Source: Ilumatobacter coccineus YM16-304 (lineage in GTDB: Bacteria > Actinomycetota > Acidimicrobiia > Acidimicrobiales > Ilumatobacteraceae). From it: DNA of 64,000 nt. A program made the position numbers and the translations under genes. The DNA is taken from the NCBI RefSeq assembly GCF_000348785.1, contig NC_020520.1:1426001-1490000 (forward strand). The letters are read 5' to 3'. The notes below the pieces were generated by a model. That model ran no database searches, was not told the origin of the DNA, and worked only from the letters and a program-made list of their open reading frames with translations. Below, one piece after another: positions 49,682 through 51,386 of the stretch. Positions within the stretch are counted from its first letter, which is position 1. Each line of letters starts with the position of its first letter.

Positions 49682-50056
49682 TCAGGCGAGCGCGGCAGCG
49701 AGCGCGTCGGGGTCGGCGACGCTCACCCAGAGGCTCGAGTGAGGTCGGAAGCCGATGACCTTCGGGACCTTCTCGGCGAACTCGATGCACACCCCGCGTT
49801 CGTGGTTGGTGCCGAACGTGATGCCGTCGTCGGCGAAGCTGAGGCGCAGTCCCACCGCGGTCCACCAACGATGCGGTCCGGTCACCTCGGTGCCCACCAC
49901 GTTGGACCGCGGTGTCTCGACCTTCCAGCGTCCGAACGTGGCGCGGAACGTGTCGTCGGTGACGGTGACGCCGTCGTCGTCGCTCAGTCGCAGCACCGTG
50001 AACATCGGAGCCCAGCGTCGATCGCGCCGATACGGAAAGAACTGCTCGTCGCTCAC
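49682..50056 (-). CDS. Conserved hypothetical protein
   Basis: This 124-residue protein has no recognised domain: 'MFTVLRLSDDDGVTVTDDTFRATFGRWKVETPRSNVVGTEVTGPHRWW' suggests a small beta-rich fold, and 'IEFAEKVPKVIGFRPHSSLWVSVADPDALAAAL' ends it. Related proteins occur in many actinobacteria without assigned function. The GTG start has TAGGTT on the minus strand (50063-50068) 6 nt upstream. It is divergent from guanine deaminase; the two -10 boxes overlap by two base pairs. Confidence 0.78.
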   Translation of the reverse strand: MSDEQFFPYRRDRRWAPMFTVLRLSDDDGVTVTDDTFRATFGRWKVETPRSNVVGTEVTGPHRWWTAVGLRLSFADDGITFGTNHERGVCIEFAEKVPKVIGFRPHSSLWVSVADPDALAAALA

Positions 50057-50062
50057 CTCGTC

Positions 50063-50072
50063 AACCTACTGT
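50063..50072. promoter_or_regulatory. Overlapping divergent -10 boxes
   Basis: TAGGTT on the minus strand (50063-50068) and TACTGT on the plus strand (50067-50072) share two base pairs. Each is 6 nt from a GTG (50056 and 50079). The start codons are only 22 bp apart, so a single symmetric element appears to fire leaderless transcripts both ways. Confidence 0.6.
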
Positions 50073-50078
50073 GCCGGG

Positions 50079-51386
50079 GTGACCACGATTCGTTGCACCG
50101 TCATGCAGACGCCGTCCCCCGACACCCTGGAGGTGCTGCGTGACGTCGTCATCACGATCGACGAGAGCGGCACGATCACTGCGATCGACGACGGCGACGC
50201 CGGCATCGCCGTCGACCGCGATCTCGGCTCGTCGGTGGTCGTGGTCCCGGGGCTCATCGATGCGCACATCCACGCGCCGCAATGGCCGCAGTTGGGCACG
50301 GGTCTCGACCTGCCGCTCGAACAGTGGCTGTTCGACAACACGTTCCCGCTCGAAGCGAAGCTGACCGACCCGGCCTTCGCCGCGGTCGTGTGGCCCGACA
50401 TGGTCGACACGTTGCTCCGCCACGGGACGACCACGGCCGTCTACTACGCGACGATCAGCGTCGAGACGACCACGATGCTCGCCGCGGTCTGCGCCGAACT
50501 CGGCCAGCGAGCCTTCGTCGGCCGCGTCGGCATGGACCATCCGGATGGAACACCCGAGTGGTATCGAGACGCGTCCGCGGTGGCGGGTGTCGATGCATCG
50601 ATGGCCTCGATCGAGCAGATCTCACAGCTCGGTTCGCCACTCGTCCGACCGATCGTGACCCCTCGCTTCGCCCCGGCGTGCACCGACGCGCTGCTCGAAG
50701 GCCTCGGCGAACTCGCACGCTCGACGTCGACGATCAGCCAGACCCACTGCTCGGAGAGCGACTGGGAGCACGGCTACGCGTTCGAGCGGTTCGGTCGCTC
50801 CGACACCGAGGCTCTCGACGGGTTCGGGCTGATCGCCGACCATTCGGTGCTGGCACACGGCGACCATCTCGGCGACGCCGACTTCGAGTTGATCACGCGG
50901 CGCGGTGCCGGCGTGGCGCACTGCCCGCTGTCGAACGCGTACTTCGCCAACGCCGTGTTCCCGGCCCGCCGAGCGCTCGATGCCGGGGTGCGGCTCGGGC
51001 TCGGCACCGACGTCGCCGGCGGGGCACGGCCCGGTGTGTTGAGCCAGTGCGGCGACGCCGTGACCATGTCGCGGATGCTCGACGAAGGTGTCGACGCTCG
51101 CGTCGAGCCGAGCGAGCGCGGCGTGACCGGTTCACGGATCTCGATCACCGAAGCGTTCTGGATGGCCACCCTCGGCGGTGCCGACCTGCTGGGCGTCCCG
51201 TGCGGCCTGCTCGAAGTCGGTCGGCAGTTCGACGCGGTGGCGGTCGATCTCGACGCGGGGACGTCGGGCTTGCGCCGATGGGAGGGCGTCGACGACGACG
51301 CCCGAACCTTCGAGAAGATCGTCCGACTCGCCGGACCGACCGACATCGCGGAGGTCTGGGTGCGCGGCAACACGGTGATCTCGTAG
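50079..51386 (+). CDS. guaD: Guanine deaminase
   Basis: The 435-residue amidohydrolase has zinc motif HxH in 'PGLIDAHIHAPQWPQLGTGLDLPLEQWLFDNTFPLEAKLTDPAFA', which closely matches GuaD, then 'THCSESDWE', 'LAHGDHLGDADFELI' and 'LGLGTDVAGGARPG' (metal Asp). It converts guanine to xanthine. The frame is open far upstream, but GTG 50079 with TACTGT 6 nt before it, and the family N-terminus, decide the start. A flavodoxin-fold reductase and an acyl-CoA dehydrogenase follow with gaps of 16 and 13 bases. Confidence 0.9.
   Translation: MTTIRCTVMQTPSPDTLEVLRDVVITIDESGTITAIDDGDAGIAVDRDLGSSVVVVPGLIDAHIHAPQWPQLGTGLDLPLEQWLFDNTFPLEAKLTDPAFAAVVWPDMVDTLLRHGTTTAVYYATISVETTTMLAAVCAELGQRAFVGRVGMDHPDGTPEWYRDASAVAGVDASMASIEQISQLGSPLVRPIVTPRFAPACTDALLEGLGELARSTSTISQTHCSESDWEHGYAFERFGRSDTEALDGFGLIADHSVLAHGDHLGDADFELITRRGAGVAHCPLSNAYFANAVFPARRALDAGVRLGLGTDVAGGARPGVLSQCGDAVTMSRMLDEGVDARVEPSERGVTGSRISITEAFWMATLGGADLLGVPCGLLEVGRQFDAVAVDLDAGTSGLRRWEGVDDDARTFEKIVRLAGPTDIAEVWVRGNTVIS

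Follow-up and report, generated by a model that had tools for sequence, protein, structure and literature searches.

In Ilumatobacter coccineus YM16-304, whose genome is a single contig of 4,830,181 bases, a gene for a 124-aa protein (49682..50056, minus strand) and a gene for a 435-aa guanine deaminase-like amidohydrolase (50079..51386, plus strand) are predicted to be transcribed in opposite directions from one ten-base-pair core, AACCTACTGT, of the form ANNNTANNNT (50063..50072, unstranded). Positions refer to the window, i.e., the whole 64,000-nucleotide stretch of DNA that was analysed. This core is quite probably a bidirectional promoter read with the housekeeping sigma factor; it would belong to the 23-bp class, in a form in which both transcripts would be leaderless. 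The both-leaderless 23-bp layout also recurs within the order Acidimicrobiales, which is a new observation.

Read directly, the plus strand from 50054 to 50081 is CAC CTCGTC AACCTACTGT GCCGGG GTG. The -10 hexamer of the minus-strand gene is TAGGTT (50063..50068, minus strand) and that of the plus-strand gene is TACTGT (50067..50072, plus strand). In each case the first T lies 12 nt before a GTG start codon (50056-50054 and 50079-50081 respectively), which leaves a gap of 6 nt between hexamer and GTG on each side and 22 bp between the two codons. The first-pass annotation had described these overlapping elements with their coordinates and the codon spacing, and its description is exact to the base. 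The two opposite-strand -10 elements have key positions in common, namely the TA at 50067-50068, which belongs to both hexamers and would be used by both directions, and the +1 positions predicted from the -10 elements and start codons are 23 bp apart. Two features speak against this reading: the base at -1 is G on both sides, a position occupied by C at 67% of the genome's leaderless-type starts, and TACTGT is rare, being found in 2 of 76 leaderless-type promoters of the genome, one of them the core's own plus hexamer.

Prokaryotic bidirectional promoters, as characterised by Warman, Grainger and co-workers, are defined by start sites 7-25 bp apart (PMC10268837), and in E. coli a spacing of 18 bp is the commonest, with 10 and 23 bp also common (PMC12825309). 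In the passages concerned of these two papers, such promoters have opposite-strand starts within this range and overlapping -10 elements, as the core described here would, and in its predicted geometry the core matches their 23-bp class. That symmetric -10 elements giving divergent transcription are known in bacteria, as the first pass had stated, is borne out by the 23-bp promoters of E. coli in the relevant passages (PMC12825309). The present case differs from the promoters described there (PMC12825309) in that a start codon coincides with each of the two predicted start sites. For leaderless genes of Actinobacteria, a TANNNT has been reported at a distance of about 12 bp upstream of the start codon (PMC3160421, PMC3898074), with no conserved -35 in M. 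tuberculosis (PMC3898074); the position of TANNNT is the same here, and a -35 preference is likewise not visible. Closely juxtaposed divergent promoters are called common in these accounts, and a divergent leaderless pair, prpD/Rv1129c, appears in a figure legend (PMC3160421, PMC3898074); two leaderless genes on one -10 element are not described in the passages concerned. Our literature search, conducted mostly by title among open-licence papers, found no description of both-leaderless pairs on one shared core.

Evidence for leaderless starts comes from a sample of 464 kb (400 kb of the genome plus the 64-kb window), in which a simple codon-usage caller identified 397 genes. TANNNT precedes candidate starts at a gap of 6 nt in 50 cases and of 7 nt in 26, compared with 10 at gap 8, 6 at gap 9, at most 8 at each other gap from 0 to 24, and 0-3 at each of gaps 0-5; the gap 6-7 signal is present in 76 of the 397 called genes. 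On both sides of the core the first T of a TANNNT stands 12 nt upstream of the start codon, a placement that is significant in this genome as judged from the sample. Judging from the gap-6 geometry, both genes likely have leaderless starts, so that the pair of leaderless genes with overlapping opposite-strand -10 elements proposed in the first pass stands as a prediction. By eye, no -35 preference is visible in the base frequencies of the leaderless-type promoters. An A four bases before TANNNT, which is required for the reverse promoter only, is rare (7 of the 76 leaderless-type promoters), so in this genome the forward promoter does not generally include it. Among 68 divergent pairs in the sample, the gap 6-7 signal occurs on both sides in 8 and on one side in 16, and the start-to-start distances of the 8 two-sided pairs are 23 (the 124-aa//deaminase pair), 66, 86, 102, 104, 118, 138, and 139 bp. 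Another divergent pair in the window (32465/32492), with starts 27 bp apart according to the gene caller, has no TANNNT at gaps 6-7; it carries CAGACT and CACCAT 6-7 nt before its starts, perhaps weaker -10 elements.

Counts of the whole layout in this genome depend strongly on the control used. A loose 28-base pattern occurs three times, and so does its reversed control, which by itself looks like chance. The reversed control is a poor yardstick because the genome is GC-rich. The strict pattern, CAY-N6-ANNSTASNNT-N6-RTG, has three genome sites against two control matches, where about 0.06 sites and about 0.7 control matches are expected from the real decamer frequency in the sample, or 0.72 and 2.2 by a cruder estimate that assumes word independence. 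Chance coincidence was rejected on this basis, since composition favours the control and the three observed sites exceed either expectation. The 464-kb sample contains 20 ANNNTANNNT decamers, and start codons lie 6-7 nt away on 10 of their 40 sides, with only 0-2 at each other distance between 0 and 15 nt. Two of the 20 decamers are two-sided (the 124-aa//deaminase core and one at genome position 200,536), compared with none of 182 control decamers. The second of these sites (G000:C1:200527-200554) has the same layout, and its decamer, ACAGTAGGTT, is the reverse complement of the 124-aa//deaminase core; the site separates a lipoprotein-like gene from a gene for a membrane protein, the latter with an uncertain start (GTG at the site or ATG 25 codons further on).

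At a third site in this genome, at 3,601,384, a gene faces a frame of just 18 codons, and such a one-sided site illustrates an alternative reading of the core, in which a genuine promoter exists in one direction only, while the second hexamer is a chance match to TANNNT and the gene behind it is transcribed from another place. The shared TA also reduces the number of extra bases that a second match requires, and orthologues lacking the signal exist for both genes. We collected 18 distinct orthologues of the 124-aa protein at ≥50% identity, own genome included, after dropping one more that is cut by a contig end; 7 of them carry TANNNT with a gap of 6-7 nt to an in-frame start, and 11 do not. 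For the deaminase the corresponding figures, again including the own genome, are 5 with and 5 without the signal among 10 orthologues, one of which (L029) has a start with a clear Shine-Dalgarno-like sequence. This alternative is nevertheless unlikely, given that TANNNT at gap 6 is far above background and that the signal is present at both genes in several relatives.

The 435-aa protein contains Pfam Amidohydro_1, and its best NCBIfam model is guanine deaminase TIGR02967 (347 bits, below the cut-off of 375.4 bits); its predicted leaderless GTG start rests on the TANNNT signal. The start predicted for the 124-aa protein, likewise a leaderless GTG, rests on the same signal and on orthologue conservation, which begins at FFPY (residues 6-9). 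This FFPY near the N-terminus and a GPHRW motif are invariant in ten aligned sequences. For the 124-aa protein, neither Pfam nor NCBIfam gave a match at E 0.001, and its confidently predicted fold (pLDDT 86.8) has no match in the PDB at E 0.001 or better; the top weak matches of the fold are histone chaperone chains at E 0.4 or worse, and it did not yield a function.

Nine of the ten genomes of the genus, own included, encode the 124-aa protein, and the deaminase was found at E 1e-40 in four of the nine other genus genomes. The two genes are head-to-head in two of these relatives, each with separate leaderless-type elements: TACGTT and TACCGT in G009, where the starts are 55 bp apart, and TAGTCT and TAGGTT in G008, where they are about 460 bp apart (both distances from coordinates). 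G006 carries the two genes on separate contigs, and the 124-aa gene of G004 is cut by a contig end. The shared -10 core of this pair was seen in the own genome only and in no relative examined. Deep conservation of the shared core was accordingly rejected for this pair, as the head-to-head relatives have separate promoters, and there is no sign that coupling has been under lasting selection at it. At this pair the layout probably arose by shrinkage of the intergenic region, a direction suggested by the two separate leaderless-type promoters that the sister species hold there.

From the sequence and geometry of the core, we infer its start sites and its use by polymerase as follows. RNA polymerase would bind the same ten base pairs in either of two orientations, with the shared T-A pair serving as -12/-11 in each, open the DNA, and begin transcription with the first G of the GTG lying on that side; the products would be two divergent leaderless mRNAs. 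The two orientations would exclude each other sterically, because two polymerases could not use the same TA at once; in E. coli, simultaneous polymerase binding at bidirectional promoters is indeed sterically prevented, according to the passages concerned of PMC12825309. The first-pass annotation concluded that the two genes must compete for one open complex, with no room for separate regulation, and neither statement finds support. Left of 50067, the -35 and activator side of the plus promoter extends into the minus gene; right of 50068, the corresponding side of the minus promoter extends into the plus gene. Each promoter therefore has its own upstream DNA within the coding sequence of the other gene, and separate regulation is possible. 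Direction-specific regulators are reported at bidirectional promoters of E. coli, e.g., acrA/acrR and soxS/soxR, in those same passages (PMC12825309). As to competition, basal firing at five E. coli bidirectional promoters was too low for it to be substantial, and activation of one direction could repress the other (passages of PMC12825309). Reasoning from E. coli, each gene would probably be independent at ordinary firing rates, with interference only if one direction were strongly activated.

The same facts bear on a reading that builds on the competition proposed in the first pass, that the overlap has been selected as a regulatory switch, in which mutual exclusion ties the expression of the two genes. 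Use of both promoters would entail steric exclusion, one-sided activation can lead to interference at bidirectional promoters of E. coli (PMC12825309, in part), and a core of this kind is retained between a HIT-domain gene and PgsA (see below). We regard the proposal as very unlikely for the 124-aa//deaminase pair, however, considering the small basal competition at the five E. coli promoters (same passages), the head-to-head relatives without overlap, and the gene families and relatives' gene order, in which we found no functional link between the 124-aa protein and the deaminase. A bidirectional promoter whose two sides fire largely independently remains the reading we prefer.

We searched 198 genomes of the class for the strict pattern and found it in 96. 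The same order is represented by 51 genomes, counting the own one, with 69 strict sites versus 20 reversed-control matches; another 105 class genomes contain 84 versus 52, and the remaining 42, all of one family (f37), contain 13 versus 42. The 23-bp both-leaderless sites are therefore in clear excess within the order and in weaker excess beyond it, and in f37 the controls outnumber them. By our own judgement, two genuine genes flank the site in 16 of 29 relatives' loci read, while at the other 13 either the frame on at least one side is short or doubtful, or the contig ends. As a yardstick, start codons at the same spacing regardless of any -10 element were taken from the own-genome sample, where coding frames lie on both sides in 14 of 585 pairs and on one side in 369, as judged by codon-usage scoring, a different criterion from the one used for the loci. 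Ten of the 16 pairs, picked because both flanking frames are long, were compared with Pfam, and all ten have Pfam families on both sides, including dUTPase//exonuclease, UvrD helicase//bacterial PH domain, and QueF-like//adenosine deaminase. By our own reading, two genuine genes are also present at 13 of 20 further sites, 8 of the 20 having been picked for apparent kinship.

The 18-bp spacing, the commonest in E. coli (PMC12825309, passages concerned), gives 20 sites versus 76 control matches in the same 51 order genomes, compared with 69 sites for the 23-bp pattern, the two patterns being of unequal stringency and their controls biased by composition. Composition, worked out for the own genome alone, predicts 0.09 sites and 1.8 control matches there. 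Enrichment of the 18-bp class is therefore also possible, yet it has fewer sites than the 23-bp class and was rejected as the main layout. In the 464-kb sample, none of nine TANNNTA sequences has a start codon 5-6 nt away. TA is scarce in a GC-rich genome, and the 23-bp layout needs one TA where the 18-bp layout needs two, which would explain a preference for 23 bp; with patterns of unequal stringency, this preference is suggestive only. If confirmed, it would bear on the influence of -10 sequence and GC content on two-way promoters.

A further-reaching reading is that the shared-TA, 23-bp, both-leaderless layout of the Acidimicrobiales is a selected class that ties gene pairs together, and that the HIT//PgsA decamer (mostly ATCGTAGGCT) has been held in 15 or more families because each direction has to fire from the same core, though never both together; we consider this rather unlikely. 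Were it true, leaderless starts would let bidirectional promoters, which have been recognised only recently and are normally found via transcript mapping, be read from genome sequence alone. Wherever both genes of a pair are leaderless, the start sites can be taken from the start codons, and the promoters and their evolution could be traced by sequence across many uncultured genomes. The HIT//PgsA core offers a directly testable case of long-term conservation.

Conservation was followed at two gene pairs. Deep conservation at nth//GNAT, hinted at by three loci (L070, L096, and L097), was rejected: of 30 nth loci, 28 show a match to GNAT on the side in question and 18 fall within range, and the decamer is present in 5 of these 18 pairs with 2.2 expected. 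The 6-7 nt layout occurs in 2 of the 28, one of which is the query's own locus. The HIT//PgsA pair first showed the layout in three genomes from two families. A search for HIT in 99 genomes of the order gave 44 matches at E 1e-20, and the loci considered are the best 30 of these 44 (L113-L142), in 29 of which PgsA is divergent from HIT. Among these best 30 of 44, a ANNNTANNNT decamer lies between the two genes in 21 of the 29 loci, compared with 1.8 in simple neighbour-preserving shuffles, and in 19 of 27 when the two loci that prompted the test are left out. The own-genome locus (L114) lacks the decamer. Within the same best 30 of 44, the 21 decamer-bearing loci span 15 families, with exact ATCGTAGGCT in nine loci from 8 families and ATCGTAGAGT in three. 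In-frame starts (TTG allowed) lie 4-11 nt away on both sides in 12 of the 29 loci, and 6-7 nt away on both sides in 6, again among the best 30 of 44. At other loci the HIT start is more distant, in some cases (e.g., L124, L128, and L141) behind a sequence that by eye is Shine-Dalgarno-like, so that at these loci the one core could perhaps serve one leaderless and one leadered gene.
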